From positions 1,148,746-1,212,745 of the forward strand of contig JAGNLV010000001.1 of assembly GCA_017999435.1 (NCBI GenBank): a DNA stretch of 64,000 nucleotides, read 5' to 3'. The notes below the pieces were generated by a model that saw nothing but the letters and a program-made list of their open reading frames with translations, did no database searches and was not told the DNA's origin. This document shows positions 21,833-31,976 of this stretch, piece after piece (the stretch's first letter is position 1; each line of letters starts with the position of its first letter). Source of the DNA: Candidatus Zixiibacteriota bacterium. Lineage in GTDB: Bacteria; Zixibacteria; MSB-5A5; GN15; FEB-12. Made by a program: the position numbers and the translations under genes.

Positions 21833-22735
21833 CTAGCGGCTCGGACCGGCCGCTGCCTCGGCCAGCGCGAAACTTTCGATCTGCCGCACCAGGTTGTTGA
21901 CGGCCGCCCGCAGCGATGCCAAGGCAAGTTCCTGCTTGCGCTTGGCCGTGTCGAATCCGGGCATGGAGCGATGTCCATTGTCCTGCGACTCCGCTGTGCC
22001 GGCCCACAGAATCTGCCCCGTCTTCGTGTCCAGCAAACGCAGGGTGAGCAATGCATGACCATCGACATCCCGCCTGCCGGTGCTTTCAAGCAGCGATCCC
22101 AGAAGCCCCCCGGACATTGCCGCCAAACTGATCGCGAGCGGGTTGATCTTGGTTTCCGTGATCGTGAAGCCGTCCTGGAACGGCATCTCGACCGTGGATT
22201 CCTCGGTCTCGGTGGTCAGGAGTGCCGCTGCGAACCCCAAACCTGCGGCCAGCCCGGCAGTCGTCAGTAATTGTGTGCCCGGATGTTGATCGTAGTACCC
22301 GACAAAGTGGTCCACTGATCCGGTGAGAACGGCATCGATCCCCGCGCCATTCAGCGAATCCAGAACCGCCGGGGTGAGAGCGGCTGTCCGGTAGGGAAAG
22401 AGCTCCACTCTGTCGAATGACCGGGCCCAGGTCAGGTGATCAGCCACCACCCGGCTGATCTCCCACGCCACAGTGCCCCGGAAGTCTTTGTCCTTCGTCC
22501 GGTCGCCGCAGTCTTGAAGCCCCGCACGCTCGCATCCATCCTGGCTCCGCTCAGCAATCTCCCGGGTATCATCGAAGAGCGCGACCGCGACGGCCATCGG
22601 TTGCGGGTCGGCCGCCCTGGGTGTGTTTGCTTCCGACATGCGGTAGTCAATTCGGTAGCCGCACCCGGCAGCGGAGAGCGACAGCGTCGCAGTCAAGACC
22701 ACCGCCGTGATCTGAGTCAGGCTTCTTGCGTTCAT
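21833..22735 (-). CDS. lipoprotein of unknown function (CsgG/LpoB-like layout)
   Basis: 300 residues. The signal ends in a lipobox (LSAAGC, Cys25) followed by GYRIDYRM. The mature part has VAVALFDDTREI, VVADHLTWARSFDRVELFPY, GIDAVLTGSVDHFVGYYDQ and ALLTLRLLDTKTGQILWAGTAES. This order resembles lipoproteins with a CsgG/LpoB/DUF799-type fold, which compare an envelope-stress or assembly factor across paralogues. The similarity is in pattern only. A Gly/Ala-rich segment (about 150-215) may contact the membrane. GGAGG lies 12 nt before the ATG. Possibly an outer-membrane assembly or secretion accessory; low certainty about function. Confidence 0.7.
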   Translation of the reverse strand: MNARSLTQITAVVLTATLSLSAAGCGYRIDYRMSEANTPRAADPQPMAVAVALFDDTREIAERSQDGCERAGLQDCGDRTKDKDFRGTVAWEISRVVADHLTWARSFDRVELFPYRTAALTPAVLDSLNGAGIDAVLTGSVDHFVGYYDQHPGTQLLTTAGLAAGLGFAAALLTTETEESTVEMPFQDGFTITETKINPLAISLAAMSGGLLGSLLESTGRRDVDGHALLTLRLLDTKTGQILWAGTAESQDNGHRSMPGFDTAKRKQELALASLRAAVNNLVRQIESFALAEAAAGPSR

Positions 22736-22800: not shown

Positions 22801-23262
22801 TCAGAAGCTCAGGGTAAACCCGACTTTCACGCCCAGGTCCGAGAAATCCGGCCTGCGGCCGTCGGACCCGATCGTCTCCGCCGGGTTCAGTCCCAGGTAG
22901 AGCCCGAGTCGCGACGCTCCGGCATCGTCCGACACGGCGCTTTCGCCTCCGGACGATTGCCCGGCGGCGTCGCCCTCTCCCTCCGTCTCTTCTGCGGGCT
23001 CTTCCCGGCCGGTCGAGCTGCTGTCGGCGGGAACCACGTCTTTGTCCTTGCCGCCGCTGTGTTTGACGAGAGCGATGATTCCGACCACCGCCAGCGCCCC
23101 CGCCGCGACGGCGAGGTAGGTGCCGACCGGTGTATCGGTGCCGGGGAGCTCATCGCTGTGATCGTGGTATCTGGCGGAAGCGCTTGACGGAATCAGGATG
23201 TACGCCGCAAGAGATGCCAGCGTCAGCGCCGCCGCGAGTTTCGGGAAGTGGGTGGGTGTCAT
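22801..23262 (-). CDS. small exported/membrane protein of unknown function
   Basis: 153 residues from the ATG at 23262 (GGAGG upstream). A signal-like N-terminus (about 1-30, ending SASA) is followed by a His/Asp-rich patch and a second hydrophobic helix (about 47-65). An acidic, low-complexity linker (EEPAEETEGEGDAAGQSSGG) leads to a C-terminus ending GVKVGFTLSF, a final aromatic pattern like that of outer-membrane beta-strands. It is transcribed divergently from the ECF sigma gene, with 117 bp between, so it may belong to the regulon. A longer in-frame reading to 23994 runs antisense to the sigma gene and was rejected. Confidence 0.6.
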   Translation of the reverse strand: MTPTHFPKLAAALTLASLAAYILIPSSASARYHDHSDELPGTDTPVGTYLAVAAGALAVVGIIALVKHSGGKDKDVVPADSSSTGREEPAEETEGEGDAAGQSSGGESAVSDDAGASRLGLYLGLNPAETIGSDGRRPDFSDLGVKVGFTLSF

Positions 23263-23331: not shown

Positions 23332-23347
23332 CCCGACAAAACGTTTG
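23332..23347 (+). promoter_or_regulatory. candidate ECF-type site, copy 1
   Basis: CCCGACAAAACGTTTG, 33 bp before the sigma-factor start. A near-identical copy occurs at 23929-23943, before the anti-sigma-like gene. The core CAAACGTTTG of the second copy is a perfect palindrome. Possible autoregulatory element. Confidence 0.4.
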
Positions 23348-23379
23348 CGGAAGAATCGACTAACGTGTAGATTTCCGCC

Positions 23380-23946
23380 GTGGCAGGGACAAACCAGGAC
23401 ATCGACGTGATCGACGGCTATCTCTGCGGGGATGCCACGAGCTGCCAAGTCATCGGACGCTACATTAATGCCGCGCTGGGTCCGTTCCGGGAGCGGCTCG
23501 GGTATCAGGTTGACGACGTTCGCTCCGATGTAGAAGATGAACTCCGTACGGCGCTGGGGGAGCGACAGTTCCGCGGCGAGGCGCAACTCAAGACATTCGT
23601 GAGCCGCGTGGTCAGCCACACCGCGATCGACTATATCCGCTACAATCGCCGCTTTGCCGATGGCGACCCGGAGGAGGCGATCAGACTCCTGCCCGACAAA
23701 CTTCCCGATCCCGAACGGGAGCTGGAGCGCAACCAGTTGCTGCGCCTGCTGTGGCGGGTGGTGCGGCGGCTGCCCCGGGATTGCGTGAAGATCCTTCGGA
23801 TGCACGAACGGGATGGTCTGACGTGCGCAATGATCGGCCAAGTCATTGGGAAAAAAGAGGATCGGGTCCGGCGGCGCATGTGGGAGTGTCGCCGCGAGGC
23901 CGAGCGAATCCGAGAGGAATTGCTGCGACCCGACAAACGTTTGTGA
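23380..23946 (+). CDS. ECF-type RNA polymerase sigma factor
   Basis: 188 residues. Sigma-2-like helices (about 50-90, with FRGEAQLKTFVSRVVSHTAIDYIRYNRR) and a sigma-4 helix-turn-helix (about 118-180, with LPRDCVKILRMHERDGLTCA and GQVIGKKEDRVRRRMWECRR). It has no sigma-1 or sigma-3, which is the ECF layout. It should direct RNA polymerase to a small regulon. The start is GTG at 23380 with no obvious ribosome site; an in-frame GTG at 23407 is an alternative. It is followed after 46 bp by a membrane zf-HC2 protein, the usual position of a cognate anti-sigma factor, and then by a TPR-CHAT protease. Confidence 0.85.
   Translation: MAGTNQDIDVIDGYLCGDATSCQVIGRYINAALGPFRERLGYQVDDVRSDVEDELRTALGERQFRGEAQLKTFVSRVVSHTAIDYIRYNRRFADGDPEEAIRLLPDKLPDPERELERNQLLRLLWRVVRRLPRDCVKILRMHERDGLTCAMIGQVIGKKEDRVRRRMWECRREAERIREELLRPDKRL
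23929..23943 (+). promoter_or_regulatory. candidate ECF-type site, copy 2
   Basis: CCCGACAAACGTTTG, matching the site at 23332 except for one A. It lies within the last codons of the sigma gene and 50 bp before the anti-sigma-like start. Confidence 0.4.
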
Positions 23947-23992
23947 GCCTGCTTCGCCGGTAGTTCGAGCGTTATGGCGAAGGAGAATATAC

Positions 23993-24820
23993 ATGGACGA
24001 CCTTGGTAACTACGACGACCGGATTGGCAGATACATTCACGGCCGCCTGACCGAAGCGGAGCGGGTGGAGTTCGAGGAAGCTCTGGGCCGGGATCCGTCC
24101 CTGGTGGAGGAAGTCGGCCGGGCGCGCCTGCTCGCGGCGGGACTGGCGGTTCAGGCGCACGTCACCGGCGACCACCCGGAACCGTTAGACATTACGGCCT
24201 TTGCCCTGGAGCCATCGGAGTTGGACAGCGGTCTCCGCAGCCGCATCGAGGCGCACCTGCGGGACTGTCCGGAGTGCCGCGTGGAAGTGGAGCTGTGTCG
24301 GCAAAGCGCCCAGGCGATGGTCGACCGCCCTGTGCCCGCATCGGCAATCCGGCCGAGGTGGTGGGCGTGGCTGGCCGGCGCCCAGCCGCGACTCGCTGTC
24401 GCCACCGTGGCCGCGGCGGCGCTGGTGTTGTTCACCGGGCTCTTTCTCGGCAGGACGTTCTTCGCGTCAGCCCCGCCCACGGCCCGGATCGAGCTCTCCG
24501 CGGCGTCCGAGCGCGGCGAGCAGACTAAAAACCTCGTCAGGATCGGCGCCGGCAGCGAACTGGTTTCGCTTGAGTTTCTGGTGCCGTCGCGCGAGGGCCG
24601 CCGTTATGACCTCGTATTGGCCGATGGCGCACAGAATGAGATTCTCACCCTGCACAACCAGCTCCACCGTATTCCGTTCTCGCTGGCCGTTCCGGCCGCG
24701 TATCTGGCCGCCGGATCCTATGAAATACTGGTTATTGAACAGGTCGATGCATCACAACCCATGGACACGCTTGCACCCGATACCTTCCGCATCCGTTTCG
24801 AAACCGCGCCGGCTCGATGA
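23993..24820 (+). CDS. membrane zf-HC2 protein, probable anti-sigma factor
   Basis: 275 residues from the ATG at 23993 (AAGGAG upstream). The cytoplasmic N-terminal half carries the zinc anti-sigma signature H88-x3-C92-x2-C95 (HLRDCPEC). One membrane segment (about 133-153) and a periplasmic C-terminal beta-rich domain (about 160-275) follow, ending APDTFRIRFETAPAR. Anti-sigma factors of this class hold their sigma factor until the protein is cleaved or rearranged. The periplasmic domain resembles sensory domains of such proteins but I cannot name it. The position between the sigma gene and a CHAT protease makes it the natural candidate substrate of that protease; this is inference. Confidence 0.75.
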   Translation: MDDLGNYDDRIGRYIHGRLTEAERVEFEEALGRDPSLVEEVGRARLLAAGLAVQAHVTGDHPEPLDITAFALEPSELDSGLRSRIEAHLRDCPECRVEVELCRQSAQAMVDRPVPASAIRPRWWAWLAGAQPRLAVATVAAAALVLFTGLFLGRTFFASAPPTARIELSAASERGEQTKNLVRIGAGSELVSLEFLVPSREGRRYDLVLADGAQNEILTLHNQLHRIPFSLAVPAAYLAAGSYEILVIEQVDASQPMDTLAPDTFRIRFETAPAR

Positions 24821-24842
24821 GGGAACCGTAAGCCGAGCGGTC

Positions 24843-27635
24843 GTGGCTTGCGCGTGTCTGATCCTCTTCACCGCCGCGGTTCTTACCTCGCGGAATGCGG
24901 ACGACCAGCCGGCCGCGCCCGAGCCGCCGAGACTGGCGGCAATTGCCGCGGCCCGGGACAGCGCCGCTTTCGACAGCGCACTCGCCGTTGATGCCGCCGG
25001 TGTCCGACGATACCTGAAGACGGCTGTTACAGACCTCACGCGGCGCGCTGCCGAGGGAGCCGATGCCGCCGGCGGCGGCGAGAGTCTGGGTGTCAACTGG
25101 CTGGTGGATCGCTACACGGGAGTCACTTCTGTCGGCGACCTGTCTCGACAACGGGACCTGCTGTATGCCTGGGGTCCGGCTCAGGCAGCCGCGAAGACCA
25201 CGTGCGATTCTCTCTTCCGCCGGGGCAACCGGGTCTTCCAGCGCGAGCGCGATGACGGCCGGGCGGGAGCGGGGGCGCGGTTTCTGTCCCTGCTCGACAC
25301 GCTGGCGGCCCGATACGCGGCTCTCGGCGATGGTCCCGGGCGGGCAGCCGTGTGGTCGTATCGAGCCGGCATCCTTGAGCAGGGCGGCGACCTTGCCGTC
25401 GCGATCGCAGCGGCCGACAGCGCCCGCGCGCTGGCCGAAGCCTTTGACGCACCCGATCTCCTGGGCGACGTCCATTTGCGCCGGAGCGAAATCGCTCTCG
25501 TGCGGCAGGCCGACTACCTCGCCGCCGGCCTGCACCACCGGCAGGCTGTCGAGGCCTTTCGGCGCATCGGCGATCAACGCCGGATTCTGACCGCCGCGCT
25601 GCAGCAGTTCTATGCCCTCCACCAGCTGAATCGGACCGAGGAGGCCCTGAGAGCCGTTCGCGAGGCCATGCAGTCGGCCCGGCATCTCAACGACCGGCGG
25701 AGCGAATCATACTGCGCCCACGTCATCAGCGAGTGTCTGTTCGACCTTGGCGACTTCGACTCGGCACTTACCTACAACGACCGCTGCACATCGCTGCGGC
25801 TCCCCGTCGATATCGCTCTCCCCCGCCCAAGCGCTCTGAGCGACCTCGGCTACGCGCTCGCCACCCGGGGGCTGGTTCTGCATGCGCTTGGACGGACCTC
25901 CGACGCCCGGTATTTCTACGAGTGGGCCGATTCGCTCTTCTCGAAGGCCGTCGATACCCTGGGGCTGTTCCTCAGCGGCGGCCGGCTGGGGAACCTGTTG
26001 CTCGACGAAGGCCGCTGGGAGGACGCCGAAGGCGTGTTCCTTCCCATCCTGGCCAGGGCCGGGAAGTTCGAGACGCGGCTGGCGGCCGCTTACGGCCTGG
26101 GAGTCGCAGAGTACCGGCGAGGACGACCCCAGGAAGCACGCATCTATCTCCGGGAATGCGTGAGGCAGTGCGAGCAGATGCGCGGGCGGCTGCCCAGTCC
26201 GGACCTTCAGTTGGGAATGCTCGCCGACAAGGCCGGCTTCTACGATCTGCTGGTCGTGACATTCCTGGAGGAGTACATGGCCGGCGGGAGCAGCGCCAGC
26301 CTGGACTCGGCGCTGGCGTACCTCGACCTTGCCCAGGCGCGCTCGCTGGTCGAAAGCGCCGGGGAGGCAGTCGGCAGCCCTTGTCCCGAGGAGAACCGGC
26401 TTCTCTCTCGCCTTTCCGACCTGCAGTTCAGCCTGCTGGTGGACCGCGATGATCCGGCCGGGCTCGGGAGGTCCCAGCGGGCTCTCGAGGATTCGCTCTT
26501 CGCCGCGCGGGTCGAATGCGCCGCCGTCAGCCCGTCCGACAGCCACCCCCCGGCCCTGCCGACCAGTCGAACCCTCTGCTCAACGGTTTTGCCCCGCGAT
26601 CTGGTGCTCTGCTGGGTGCTGTCGCCGGCGGGGACGTTCGCTATCGCTCTATCGGCCGACACAGTCGTCGTGCGGCCGCTGGCGGCATCGCGCGACGAAA
26701 TCGCCGAACTTGTCCGGGAGTTCGTCGCCGCCGTGGCGGCCTATCCAACAGCCCGAGACTTCCCGGAAAGCCCGTACCACGCTCCCGGGCGGAAGCTCTA
26801 CGACATCCTGCTGAAGCCCTTCGTCAACGAACAGGACACGACCCGCCTGACAGTTATCGCCCCGGGTGCGCTCGCCGGCCTGCCGGTGGGCGCACTGGTT
26901 GATGCGCACGGCCGCTTCGTGGTGGAGAGCCGGGAAGTTGTGTACGCGCCCGCTCTGTCGATGTTGGCTCGGCACCCTGAGGAAGCGGAGCGGTCCGATC
27001 CCCGCCGCATGCTGGCTTTCGGCGACGCCCGGTACGACGACAACTCGGTTCTGTCCGGACTTCCCTTCTCATCCGAGGAGCTTGACCGCATCAGCCGGGT
27101 GTACGGCGCGAACGCCTCGGTCTATGCGGACTCGGCGGCCACCGAGGCGAATGTGCGGCGCACCGCCGATAGCTGGACGGGGATTCTGCACTTAGCAGTT
27201 CATGGGTTGGTCGATCCCGACGACTGGTCGCGTTCGGCCCTGAGCTTTTCGTTCGACTCCGACGGCCGGGGATCGGGCCTGCTTCACGCCTCGGAGATCG
27301 CTCACCTGAATATTCCTGCGGCCCTCGTGTTTCTTTCCGCTTGTGAGAGCGGCTCCGGGAGGCAGATTGCGGGCGAAGGCGTAATGAGCCTGGCGCGATC
27401 ATTCCTGGCGGCCGGCGCCGGCTCCGTGATATCGACCCTCTGGCGCGTCGATGACCGGGCCTCTGCGGAATTCGTCGGGCAGTTCTACGACCGAACGGCC
27501 GCCGCGGCGCCGCCCGCGGAAGCGATCGCCGAGGCGCAACGCCTGATGATCCATTCCGATCGCCCGCTCTACCGCCATCCGTATTTCTGGGCTTCCTACG
27601 TGCTTACCCAGACGGGCGCTCGGAAGACCAAGTAA
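24843..27635 (+). CDS. TPR-CHAT (caspase-like) protease
   Basis: About 930 residues from a GTG at 24843. GAGGGA lies 18 nt upstream, so the start is uncertain. A hydrophobic N-terminus (about 1-16) suggests a membrane anchor or signal. An alpha-helical TPR-like region (about 60-560) has repeated A-x3-G/A-x2-Y-A patterns such as EQGGDLAVAIAAADSARALA and HALGRTSDARYFYEWADSLF. The C-terminal CHAT domain (about 640-930) carries the caspase-fold dyad: His787 in HLAVHG and Cys834 in FLSACESG, plus GAGSVISTLWRVDD. CHAT domains are cysteine proteases, often activated through attached sensors. The gene is in the same operon as the sigma factor and its probable anti-sigma. Confidence 0.85.
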   Translation: MACACLILFTAAVLTSRNADDQPAAPEPPRLAAIAAARDSAAFDSALAVDAAGVRRYLKTAVTDLTRRAAEGADAAGGGESLGVNWLVDRYTGVTSVGDLSRQRDLLYAWGPAQAAAKTTCDSLFRRGNRVFQRERDDGRAGAGARFLSLLDTLAARYAALGDGPGRAAVWSYRAGILEQGGDLAVAIAAADSARALAEAFDAPDLLGDVHLRRSEIALVRQADYLAAGLHHRQAVEAFRRIGDQRRILTAALQQFYALHQLNRTEEALRAVREAMQSARHLNDRRSESYCAHVISECLFDLGDFDSALTYNDRCTSLRLPVDIALPRPSALSDLGYALATRGLVLHALGRTSDARYFYEWADSLFSKAVDTLGLFLSGGRLGNLLLDEGRWEDAEGVFLPILARAGKFETRLAAAYGLGVAEYRRGRPQEARIYLRECVRQCEQMRGRLPSPDLQLGMLADKAGFYDLLVVTFLEEYMAGGSSASLDSALAYLDLAQARSLVESAGEAVGSPCPEENRLLSRLSDLQFSLLVDRDDPAGLGRSQRALEDSLFAARVECAAVSPSDSHPPALPTSRTLCSTVLPRDLVLCWVLSPAGTFAIALSADTVVVRPLAASRDEIAELVREFVAAVAAYPTARDFPESPYHAPGRKLYDILLKPFVNEQDTTRLTVIAPGALAGLPVGALVDAHGRFVVESREVVYAPALSMLARHPEEAERSDPRRMLAFGDARYDDNSVLSGLPFSSEELDRISRVYGANASVYADSAATEANVRRTADSWTGILHLAVHGLVDPDDWSRSALSFSFDSDGRGSGLLHASEIAHLNIPAALVFLSACESGSGRQIAGEGVMSLARSFLAAGAGSVISTLWRVDDRASAEFVGQFYDRTAAAAPPAEAIAEAQRLMIHSDRPLYRHPYFWASYVLTQTGARKTK

Positions 27636-28323: not shown

Positions 28324-30708
28324 ATGAGCGAGCATTTTCTCTCCGCCCTGCGGGCGCAGCTGCGCGCGCACGGGCAGGCGCCCCTGCGCGTCATCGGCAT
28401 CGACCTGGGCACCACCAACTGCACGGTCGCGGAGATTGTCGCCGACGGCGCGGCTGAGGATTTCGAGCCGCGGTGTATCGAGATCGAGCAGGAGACGCCG
28501 TTCCAGGGTGAGTACACGCACATCCTGATACCCTCGATCGTCGCGCTCCACGGCGGCCGCGAGTATGTCGGCGAGGGGGCCAAAAGGCTGCGGGCCGGCC
28601 TCGCCGGCCCGGAGACCGGCCTGGAGCGCAATCGGACGATATTCTGGGAAGTGAAGAACGAGATGGGGATCCAGCGCACCTACGCGCGCGCGCCGGAGGG
28701 GTATCGCGGCGCGGCCGAAGTGAGCGGTCGGATTCTGCGGTTTCTGGCCAACAGGTACCGGGCGGACCACGGGGAGCCGCGCAAGGCGGTGGTGACGGTG
28801 CCGGCTTCGTTCCAACAGCCGCAGCGAGAGGATACGCTCCGGGCGGCCAAGCTGGCGTCGATGGAACTGGCCGGGGGCGACCTGCTCGATGAGCCGCTGG
28901 CCGCCTTTGTCGACTTCTGGATGCGCGGGGAATTGGCGAAGGCTCTTCCGCGCGGAGAGGGCAATGTCCTCGTGTTCGATTTCGGCGGGGGCACTTGCGA
29001 CACGGCCGTGGTGAAGGTCCACGCGGGGGACGCCGCGGGCCACCTGAGGGCCTCCCCGCTCTCAGTGTCGCGCTACTACCGCCTCGGCGGCGGCGACATC
29101 GACCTGGCGATCTTCTACGAAGTCCTCCTCCCGCAAATAATGGAGCAGAACGGATTGAGCGAGCGCGACCTGGATTTCGGCGTGAAGAAAAACCAGCTCG
29201 AACCCGCGTTCCTCGGCATTGCCGAGTCGCTCAAAGTAGGTCTATGCACGCAGGTGCGGCGTCTCAGGGAGCTGGCGCGGGGCGCCGAACTCCCGATCGA
29301 GCCGGTCCAGAAATTGCCGGCGACGGAGCGCTGCCGGCTCACCAACGGCCGGGAGATCACTCTGCAGTCCCCCGCCCTGACACTTCCGCAGTTTGAGGCT
29401 GTGCTGGAGCCGTTTCTGGACCGCACCTTCGTGTTCCATCGCGAGACGGAGTACCGGTTGACCTGTTCGATCTTCGCGCCGCTTGAGGATGCCCTCGACC
29501 GGGCGGAGCTCGACGCGCGGGAGATTGATTGCTGCCTGCTGGTGGGGGGCAGCTCGCTGATCCCGCAAGTGGCCGATGCCCTCCGCAGTTACTTTGAACC
29601 CGAGAAAGTCGTCCTGTACTCGCACCCGGATCAGGTGCAGTCGGCGGTGGCGCGGGGCGCCGCCGCGCAGGCGCTCTCGCTGGCCGTCCTCGGCCGGGGG
29701 GTGCTGCAGCCGGCCTCGCCCACGGGCGTGTGCATCCGAACAACCGCCGGGAAGATGCAGTTGATTCCGCCTCACAGCCCCCTGCCGTACCCGGCGGCAG
29801 GCGAATGGGCGATGAATACCAACCTGGCTCTGCCCAAGCGGCTGAGCCAGACTGAACGCGTAGTCCGGATCGAACTCATCGGGACCGATGATTCGCTCAT
29901 CCAACGCTGGACCTGGTTGGTGCCCCCGGCAGCCGCTCCCGGCGAACCGTTGACCCTCCAGTACTGCATGGACGAGAATCAGGTGATCCGGTACCGGTTG
30001 GACTTGGAATCGGGAACCGGTCGGGAGGGTCTCACCGGGAGCACCGAGAACCCGATCCATAACGTGGTCAACCCCGACCTCAAGCGAATCAGGATTCTCG
30101 AACTTGAGGAGTGCCTCCGGACCTCGCTACCCGCCGGAGAGCAACAGGAGGAAATGGTGGTCGAAATCGCCAACTTGAGCCGGGAGCTTCGCCAGTATGA
30201 CAAGGCACGCTACCTGCTGGAGAGAGTTCTCCGCACCCGGGGCGGCGGCGACATCGGGGTTCTCAATTACCTGGGCATAGTGTGCGGCGAGCAGGGTGAC
30301 CGCCAGGCGGAGGAGAAGTACTACAGAGAAGCCGCCCGGCTTGGTTCCGATGCCGCTCAATTCAATCTCGCCTACTTCTACCGCGACCACGGTTCGCTGG
30401 CGAAAGCCGCCGAGGCGATTGAACGCCTGGTCGAGCGGTTCCCCAAGGGTCCGTATTTGGTGCTCAAGGCCGACATTGCCGAACGGGAGGAGCGGATTTA
30501 CGAGAGCAAGCGCGCTTTGGAGATGGCCAGGAAGGCGTTTGGGCCGGTGAAATCGCTGAGCGACTGGGAACTGAGTTGGTACGAGCACGGCGCCAAACTT
30601 GCCGGCGACGAGGCGGCGCAGGAGATGGTTCGGGCGGAGAGGAAACGGCGGCGGCGCTCAAACGCCCCCGAACCGAGCGGACTCCTTCCAGAAATGAGGG
30701 AGGCCTAG
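28324..30708 (+). CDS. Hsp70-like ATPase with C-terminal TPR region
   Basis: 794 residues from the ATG at 28324 (AAGGGG upstream). The actin/Hsp70 ATPase domain shows as GIDLGTTNCTVAE near 26-38, VLVFDFGGGTCDTAVV near 214-229 and LLVGGSSLIPQVADAL near 403-418. The canonical substrate-binding half is replaced after about 420 by a divergent beta-rich segment, and then by TPR-like helices (about 600-770: LREL..YDKARYLLERVL, YYREAARLGSDAAQFNLAYFYRD). It is therefore a DnaK-like paralogue, not the housekeeping chaperone, and no DnaJ or GrpE is nearby. It is followed after 8 bp by an SF1 helicase gene. Function unknown; a chaperone-helicase partnership is likely from gene order. Confidence 0.85.
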   Translation: MSEHFLSALRAQLRAHGQAPLRVIGIDLGTTNCTVAEIVADGAAEDFEPRCIEIEQETPFQGEYTHILIPSIVALHGGREYVGEGAKRLRAGLAGPETGLERNRTIFWEVKNEMGIQRTYARAPEGYRGAAEVSGRILRFLANRYRADHGEPRKAVVTVPASFQQPQREDTLRAAKLASMELAGGDLLDEPLAAFVDFWMRGELAKALPRGEGNVLVFDFGGGTCDTAVVKVHAGDAAGHLRASPLSVSRYYRLGGGDIDLAIFYEVLLPQIMEQNGLSERDLDFGVKKNQLEPAFLGIAESLKVGLCTQVRRLRELARGAELPIEPVQKLPATERCRLTNGREITLQSPALTLPQFEAVLEPFLDRTFVFHRETEYRLTCSIFAPLEDALDRAELDAREIDCCLLVGGSSLIPQVADALRSYFEPEKVVLYSHPDQVQSAVARGAAAQALSLAVLGRGVLQPASPTGVCIRTTAGKMQLIPPHSPLPYPAAGEWAMNTNLALPKRLSQTERVVRIELIGTDDSLIQRWTWLVPPAAAPGEPLTLQYCMDENQVIRYRLDLESGTGREGLTGSTENPIHNVVNPDLKRIRILELEECLRTSLPAGEQQEEMVVEIANLSRELRQYDKARYLLERVLRTRGGGDIGVLNYLGIVCGEQGDRQAEEKYYREAARLGSDAAQFNLAYFYRDHGSLAKAAEAIERLVERFPKGPYLVLKADIAEREERIYESKRALEMARKAFGPVKSLSDWELSWYEHGAKLAGDEAAQEMVRAERKRRRRSNAPEPSGLLPEMREA

Positions 30709-30716
30709 TTTGTGCC

Positions 30717-31976
30717 ATGGGCGTCTGGCTGGTACCTGAAAGCGAACTGACACCCGATCAGATTCGAGCGGTCCAATTGCCGACCGACGGCCACAAGGTT
30801 GTTTCCGGTCCCCCGGGATCGGGCAAGACCCTGGTGCTTGTTCATCGCGCGCGGTATCTCCTCGACTCAAAGGGAATCACCGGCGGGCAGCTCCGCCTGT
30901 TTGTCTATACCCGCACCCTTCGCGACTACATCCAGTCGGCCCTCAAACTGCTGGGTATTGCCGACGAATGCGTGCTCACTTTTGACGCGTGGTGTCGATC
31001 CTTCTATCTTTCGTGCGTGGGCAACCCACCCCCTAGGGATGAGGTTAATGGCCAGCTTGACTTCAGGGAGATCCGACGTGCTGTTCTCAGAGCGCTCGAG
31101 ACTGCACCGGTAGCACCGGTTTACGATTATGTGCTGGTCGACGAGGGTCACGATCTCGACGAGATTTCCTACAAGATCCTCGTCCGGATCGCCCGCCACA
31201 TCACTGTCTGTATGGACAGGAAACAGCAGATCTATGACGATGGTGCGGCCGAGGAACGGGTGCTTCACATACTCGGGCTGCCCAAGCGCAGCGTTGCTCT
31301 CCTTGAGGCGTATCGCTGCTGCCCCTACATCACCCGCCTGGCCGCGACCCTCCTGGACCGCCAGGAGCGACAGCCGTATTTGGGGCAAATGCGGACCGAG
31401 CAGGTGGAGAGGGAGAAGCCGCTGCTGTTCATCGCCAATGCACAGGAAGCGGAGCTTCACGAGCTCGCGCGGCAGATCAGGGAGCGCCAGAGGGTACAGG
31501 GCAGGAATGACGGCGGTGGCGGGAGCATCGCTATCCTGTTTCCCCAAAAGCGCATGGTCTTCGGATATGCGAACGCGCTGGCCGATCTCGGCGTACAGGT
31601 TGAAGTGCACCTGGACCGGCCCGCCCAGCAGGCCAGATATGAAATGGTTGATTTCCGGAACAATCTCCCCAAGATACTGACTTACCACCAAGCGAAGGGG
31701 CTCACATTTGATTCGGTGTTTATGCCGCGCCTGGTCGGTTACGCGTTCAAACGAGTATCTGAACCGCGCTTGCGCCGGCTGCTGTTCGTCGGAATCACAC
31801 GGGCCAAGAGCTGGGTTTATATGAGCACGGAGGACTCGCGGATGCTCCCATGCCTCAACGCGATCTGCGATGAGTCCGGAGACTTTCTGGCTGTCCGATA
31901 TTCCGGCGGGAATGACGGGCCGAAGCCGGACACTGACAGCGGTGAGGAAGACGGGTTGGCGAACCTCTTCACCTGA
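30717..31976 (+). CDS. compact UvrD/RecD-like superfamily 1 helicase
   Basis: 419 residues. Walker A GPPGSGKT (31-38), Walker B VLVDEGHD (about 139-146), motif IV region YRCCPYITR (about 199), motif V AKGLTFDSVFMPRL (about 325) and motif VI RRLLFVGITRAKSW (about 352) are all present. The 1B and 2B insertions of full UvrD/PcrA are absent, and the length is far below the usual 650-750, so this is a minimal SF1 ATPase. GGAGG lies about 13 nt before the ATG. The 8-bp gap from the Hsp70-like gene implies co-transcription. Possible roles are DNA/RNA remodelling in defence or repair; neither is shown by the sequence. Confidence 0.85.
   Translation: MGVWLVPESELTPDQIRAVQLPTDGHKVVSGPPGSGKTLVLVHRARYLLDSKGITGGQLRLFVYTRTLRDYIQSALKLLGIADECVLTFDAWCRSFYLSCVGNPPPRDEVNGQLDFREIRRAVLRALETAPVAPVYDYVLVDEGHDLDEISYKILVRIARHITVCMDRKQQIYDDGAAEERVLHILGLPKRSVALLEAYRCCPYITRLAATLLDRQERQPYLGQMRTEQVEREKPLLFIANAQEAELHELARQIRERQRVQGRNDGGGGSIAILFPQKRMVFGYANALADLGVQVEVHLDRPAQQARYEMVDFRNNLPKILTYHQAKGLTFDSVFMPRLVGYAFKRVSEPRLRRLLFVGITRAKSWVYMSTEDSRMLPCLNAICDESGDFLAVRYSGGNDGPKPDTDSGEEDGLANLFT

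Follow-up and report, generated by a model that had tools for sequence, protein, structure and literature searches.

Linkage of an ECF sigma factor and a membrane anti-sigma factor to a predicted exported TPR-CHAT protein in Zixibacteria and other phyla

Does a caspase-fold protein encoded directly behind a sigma factor and a membrane anti-sigma factor belong with them to one regulatory device? The question is raised by a locus in a stretch of 64,000 nucleotides (the window) from a Candidatus Zixiibacteriota genome (contig JAGNLV010000001.1), in which genes for an extracytoplasmic function (ECF) sigma factor, an anti-sigma factor with a zf-HC2 domain and a protein that joins tetratricopeptide repeats (TPRs) to a CHAT domain follow one another. 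An earlier note on this DNA had described the three as consecutive on one strand, with a single-pass anti-sigma and an intact His787/Cys834 pair in the CHAT protein, and had taken the hydrophobic start of the latter to place it on the membrane or in the periplasm, together with the outer domain of the anti-sigma. It had likened the set to the TPR-CHAT protease of type III-E CRISPR systems, seen here with no CRISPR effector, had put it forward as the best candidate for an undescribed system, and had named rare co-occurrence of the three genes as a finding that would speak against its proposal.

Linkage of the three genes across genomes

The three genes are consecutive as described, all on the + strand of a Zixibacteria-type genome of 3.5 Mb, with gaps of 46 bases between the sigma and anti-sigma genes and 22 bases between the anti-sigma and CHAT genes (Table 1). 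Within the phylum a close CHAT homolog was present in 14 of 132 genomes, and nine genomes carry members of an orthologous CHAT clade that received 100/99 support on the CHAT tree. Sigma and anti-sigma genes lie directly upstream of the orthologous CHAT gene in seven Zixibacteria genomes (G000, which is that of the window, G006, G040, G045, G080, G086 and G056); G045 has two copies of the cassette, and G056 was counted via two contigs that overlap by 19 bases within the anti-sigma gene. The locus of one other genome (G036) is cut at a contig end.

Linkage was also assessed for 50 related CHAT genes, each with 3 kb or more of flanking sequence. They came from the Zixibacteria loci and from a public set for which CHAT similarity was the sole criterion of choice. 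An ECF sigma gene was found within 1.5 kb of 34 of these 50, against about 2 (about 5%) expected from the density of sigma genes farther away (0.0136 per kb). The linkage between sigma and CHAT genes is not due to chance, and rare co-occurrence is not what the genomes gave. In the linked loci the sigma gene is nearly always followed by one for a protein with a single membrane helix, and the genes occur in three orders: co-directional in Zixibacteria, some Acidobacteriota and KSB1; with the CHAT gene facing the pair in Bacteroidota; and with the pair between two CHAT genes in Aminicenantes. The presence of a sigma gene is clustered on the CHAT tree (21 changes as against 31.6 in shuffles), yet many independent changes are still needed to account for it.

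Two CHAT genes around or near a single sigma/anti-sigma pair were seen at seven loci, mostly of Aminicenantes (L020, L022, L023, L025, L032, L035 and L061), and these CHAT genes come from different clades of the tree.

Fold, catalytic dyad and probable export of the TPR-CHAT protein

The CHAT protein matches PF12770 with 214.5 bits (cut-off 24), and Pfam places TPRs N-terminal to the CHAT domain. The His/Cys dyad and its surroundings are strictly conserved in 43 sequences at about 20% identity to the window protein; the numbering His787/Cys834 is correct if translation starts at GTG 24843, and becomes 788/835 in the frame from 24840 used in our analysis. Foldseek searches with an AlphaFold model (predicted local distance difference test, pLDDT, 83) returned DdvA (8rw5, E 1.3e-16), Csx29 (8eey, 2.1e-16) and separase as top matches, and a His-Cys dyad CHAT domain behind a TPR superhelix is the arrangement of a TPR-CHAT peptidase. 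An arginine specificity like that of separase was considered and rejected: the residue 41 positions beyond the catalytic Cys, which from an ungapped alignment and the Chaetomium numbering we take to correspond to the arginine-selecting Asp of separase, is never Asp in the 43 proteins. This Asp is likewise not kept in Craspase (PMC9729208).

The window protein has a hydrophobic start, and the signal peptides of its orthologs decide the matter of export better than the window sequence alone. Lipoprotein-type signals were found in five Zixibacteria relatives (LIVQSC in L096, LLFQCS in L097, LIISCG in L098, LFLHCS in L014 and LVSCS in L101) and a cleavable-type signal in another (L017), and most loci in other phyla encode CHAT proteins with hydrophobic N-termini; all signal peptides were called by a home-made rule rather than by SignalP. 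The only start codon nearby in frame is the GTG at 24843, for which no clear ribosome site is seen, and the ATGA overlap at 24817 lies in a different frame. The window CHAT protein is very probably exported, and given the signals of its relatives it would therefore act in the compartment of the anti-sigma outer domain, as the earlier note had supposed.

The sigma factor, the anti-sigma factor and the upstream element

The identities given to the two upstream genes were upheld by profile searches. The sigma factor matches TIGR02937 with 51.4 bits (cut-off 42.9), its matches to the Pfam models of regions 2 and 4 falling below cut-off, and the anti-sigma matches zf-HC2 with 32.9 bits (cut-off 22.2); with a zinc-type domain and one membrane helix encoded beside an ECF sigma gene, the two have the features of an ECF sigma/class I membrane anti-sigma pair. 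In an AlphaFold model of the anti-sigma (pLDDT 71; predicted template modelling score 0.40) the outer domain gave generic beta-sandwich matches only, with low TM-scores, and a more precise fold identity was abandoned.

In all 10 aligned Zixibacteria-type anti-sigmas, Arg or Lys occupies a position some 18 residues beyond the membrane helix, Arg174 in the window protein; this basic residue is a candidate cut site and no more. Conservation of this site across phyla was dropped as a claim, and our statement is limited to Zixibacteria because the alignment beyond that group is too poor at this position.

Upstream of the sigma gene lies a bipartite element, AACGTTTG-N19-GTANATTT, with 5 bases between its end and the start codon. 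The element is exact in the genome of the window and in G006 and G086, where in each case its sole exact match is at this sigma gene; a copy with two mismatches occupies the equivalent position in G045, and in a blind scan of the genomes two-mismatch copies turned up ahead of previously unexamined sigma genes in G056 and in G081. The element resembles an autoregulated promoter whose transcript would have almost no leader. It may be read by this sigma or by the housekeeping sigma, because TTTGCG-N18-TAGATT also qualifies as a weak site of the sigma-70 type. Mapping of a regulon by the element in the host genome gave, beyond the sigma promoter, one two-mismatch match, and a reversed control pattern did as well. 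The core of the element is a perfect palindrome, CAAACGTTTG, a second copy of which is found at about 23933-23950, at the 3′ end of the sigma gene and ahead of the anti-sigma gene.

Relation to known systems

The DdvS/DdvA pair of Myxococcus xanthus (PDB 8rot, 8rw5) likewise consists of an ECF sigma and a transmembrane anti-sigma, with TPRs and a CHAT domain in the device. The CHAT domain of DdvA was matched by profile at E 2.9e-9 with His and Cys aligned, our comparison being based on PDB titles, a review and this domain match. DdvA, however, is one chain of 991 residues, whereas the window encodes the same TPR-CHAT fold in a protein separate from the anti-sigma, which has an Ig-like outer domain of its own. 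A single-chain form was also found in Chloracidobacterium (L063, 836-4429), where a fusion of 1197 residues (anti-sigma-like domain, membrane helix, TPRs and CHAT) lies directly behind an ECF sigma gene. Judged by domain content, the window cassette is a split, exported form of the DdvA-like single-chain arrangement. DdvS controls a defence island of CRISPR and cyclic-oligonucleotide-based antiphage signalling (CBASS) genes (PMC12288465), whereas no defence genes were recognised among the neighbours of the window cassette that we examined.

ECF54 sigma genes adjoin CHAT and subtilase genes, and proteolytic control has been proposed for them (PMC8999054). The window shares the adjacency of ECF sigma and CHAT genes with this group, but ECF54 is said to be without an anti-sigma, whereas the window has one, and the genes after its CHAT gene encode HSP70-like and UvrD-like proteins and not a subtilase. 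With DdvA as the best fold match and proteolytic regulation already proposed for CHAT beside ECF54, the description as a wholly undescribed system is not supported: the cassette belongs to DdvA-like ECF signalling with CHAT and is not a new category.

Type III-E Craspase (Csx29, Csx30 and CASP-sigma) also has a TPR-CHAT protease, an inhibitor of an ECF sigma and the sigma itself in one locus, and cleavage of Csx30 has been proposed to relieve sigma inhibition (PMC10028731). Csx29 is, however, triggered by target RNA via Cas7-11, and Csx30 is not a membrane zf-HC2 anti-sigma. The likeness drawn by the earlier note is borne out by the AlphaFold model, which resembles Csx29, and the two proteins are related by fold only. 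A RAMP-type gene (PF03787) gave no match in the host genome, which was searched family by family and in which controls were detected, in agreement with the stated lack of a CRISPR effector; the CHAT protein scores 31.8 bits with the NCBIfam Csx29 model (cut-off 300). An origin from type III-E CRISPR was rejected on the grounds of the missing RAMP gene and of this score, which is far below cut-off.

In the RpoE/RseA pathway of E. coli the first cut is proposed to be made on the outside (PMC8103513). RseA resembles the window protein as a membrane anti-sigma with an outer domain, but DegS belongs to the serine proteases and carries a PDZ domain, whereas the candidate first protease here is a caspase-fold TPR protein.

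Proposed mechanism and alternatives

The exported TPR-CHAT protein is probably a dedicated regulator that acts on the anti-sigma from outside. We give roughly an even chance, the highest among the explanations considered, to the more specific proposal that the cassette is an envelope-to-DNA switch, in which the CHAT protein responds to a signal in the envelope by cutting the anti-sigma from that side. In such a switch the zf-HC2 domain of the single-pass anti-sigma would, going by its family, keep the ECF sigma inactive at the inner membrane, and the TPR-CHAT protein, exported in orthologs by their signal peptides and presumably in the window as well, would stay on or near the membrane. Its TPR superhelix would receive a signal from the envelope, such as a damaged or stranded component of the outer membrane, and the activated caspase-fold domain would cut the Ig-like outer domain of the anti-sigma close to the membrane. 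By analogy with RseA, a site-2 protease, genes for which are encoded in the host genome, and then a cytoplasmic protease would free the sigma, which might read the conserved element upstream of its own gene and so amplify sigma, anti-sigma and CHAT protein.

Several points weigh against this proposal. Sixteen of the 50 CHAT genes have no sigma gene within 1.5 kb, and in one genome (G081) the sigma/anti-sigma pair is on one contig and the CHAT gene, whose frame contains a stop, on another. The binomial p value for the linkage counts related loci as if they were independent and makes the case look stronger than it is; the recurrent switches of orientation stand nonetheless, because they do not rest on that value. 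In the window CHAT protein itself no lipobox and no convincing start codon were found. A thiol protease in an oxidising compartment must have its cysteine protected, and since the arginine-selecting residue of separase is not kept, the specificity and the cut site are not predictable.

The main rival is a non-proteolytic co-sensor, in which the exported TPR-CHAT protein, like the outer half of DdvA in detached form, would bind the outer domain of the anti-sigma and change its state through this binding alone, the caspase fold serving as a binding platform or acting on another target. In DdvA and in the Chloracidobacterium fusion the anti-sigma has TPR-CHAT as its own outer domain, so that the module could be a structural sensor, and a protease role would there require cutting of its own chain or of a dimer partner. 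Pure binding, however, would not demand a His and a Cys that are invariant at such low sequence identity, and we regard this explanation as somewhat unlikely.

Alternatively, the sigma/anti-sigma pair may be an ordinary switch triggered in some other way and the exported CHAT protein be its output, an enzyme that removes damage or kills and is produced only once the sigma is free. The CHAT gene comes later in the operon that the conserved element precedes, and the host genome holds no other exact copy of that element; the sigma may therefore act chiefly on its own cassette. Set against this are the Bacteroidota loci, where the CHAT gene is on the opposite strand, and DdvA and the Chloracidobacterium fusion, where CHAT belongs to the anti-sigma, which fits a regulator better; a role as output is distinctly unlikely. 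That the genes are neighbours without common function, brought together by chance or common descent, is suggested by vertically shared gene content inside Zixibacteria but is highly improbable in view of the repeated adjacency in varied orientations in several phyla and of the many independent changes on the CHAT tree.

Neighbouring genes and further CHAT loci

Two genes upstream of the cassette are divergent from it and may be companions of the proposed envelope switch. The C-terminus of the 152-residue exported protein, KVGFTLSF, resembles the last strand of an outer-membrane protein. Its family, for which there was no Pfam match above cut-off, is present in 7 of the 132 phylum genomes (those of the window, L096, L017, L098, L153, L155 and L156), all members ending in an outer-membrane-protein-like strand of the type KVGxSxSF; homologs occupy the equivalent place in G006 and G040 and lie 2.6 kb downstream of the CHAT gene in G056, and three further genomes with a homolog showed no sigma or CHAT gene within the stretch fetched. 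The 300-residue lipoprotein is found in 4 of the 132 genomes, in three of them beside the cassette; the third of these copies immediately follows the CHAT gene of L101. Both proteins hint at outer-membrane surveillance.

Table 1. Features of the cassette and its divergent neighbours in the window
Feature	Position	Strand	Basis
Predicted lipoprotein, 300 aa, possible companion	21833..22735	-	42% identical homolog at equivalent place in L096
Divergent small exported protein, 152 aa, one membrane segment, possible companion	22801..23259	-	Homologs likewise divergent in L096 and L017; phylum search
Conserved bipartite element, 35 bp, probable cassette promoter	23340..23374	+	Exact and two-mismatch matches at sigma genes
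ECF sigma factor, 188 aa, GTG start	23380..23946	+	TIGR02937 above cut-off; aligned with four orthologs
Single-pass anti-sigma, 275 aa: cytoplasmic zf-HC2, one membrane helix, extracytoplasmic Ig-like domain	23993..24820	+	zf-HC2, alignments, AlphaFold model
Zinc-binding anti-sigma motif H88-x3-C92-x2-C95	24254..24277	+	Invariant in ten aligned anti-sigma proteins
Anti-sigma membrane helix, residues 132-156	24386..24460	+	Model; hydropathy of relatives
Anti-sigma outer beta-sandwich (Ig-like) domain, residues 164-272	24482..24808	+	Model, moderate confidence; fold class only
Predicted exported TPR-CHAT protein, ~930 aa, N-terminal signal peptide or anchor	24843..27635	+	Pfam CHAT and TPR; ortholog signal peptides; model pLDDT 83
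CHAT (caspase/separase fold) domain	26781..27605	+	PF12770; catalytic His 27201-27203, Cys 27342-27344

Downstream of the cassette (28324-31976 of the window) are genes for an HSP70-like ATPase domain fused to TPRs and for a short UvrD-like helicase, the best PADLOC matches of the latter being the NERD+UvrD and GajB models. In PADLOC the sigma and the anti-sigma had no match, and the CHAT protein had only a weak one, to BovA (about 23 bits). Pfam scans of the neighbours contained no gasdermin, and no search aimed at gasdermin was made.

Each of the four CHAT genes in the host genome has an ECF sigma gene no more than 1 kb away. Two of them belong to further cassettes (L002, 1906-9921, at about 952-960 kb of G000:C1; L003, 1902-7254, at about 384-389 kb of G000:C3) with the order ECF sigma, small soluble protein, TPR-CHAT protein without a signal peptide and secreted subtilase, the small protein of L002 having a zinc-type H-x3-C-x2-C motif. 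These look closer to the ECF54 type than does the window cassette, fitting its CHAT and subtilase part, and would be a cytoplasmic counterpart of the window cassette. The fourth CHAT gene (L001, 2453-5985) has a divergent ECF sigma gene 150 bases away and a GNAT acetyltransferase gene downstream.

Implications

For most membrane anti-sigmas outside model species no activating protease is known. A conserved exported caspase-fold protein beside anti-sigmas in several phyla is a candidate for such a protease, and one that is directly testable. Across Zixibacteria, Aminicenantes, Acidobacteriota, Bacteroidota and their relatives there may be a widespread class of envelope-stress pathways in which an exported caspase-fold TPR protease makes the first cut in a membrane anti-sigma. 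This enzyme, unrelated to DegS, would take over its role and might sense the outer-membrane-like C-terminus of the divergent small protein. We consider this generalisation plausible while placing it a little short of an even chance. If true, separase/caspase-type proteases would operate in the bacterial envelope, DdvA, the ECF54 neighbourhoods and Craspase, so far three separate facts, would be joined, and bacteria would have a new route by which to sense trouble in the envelope.

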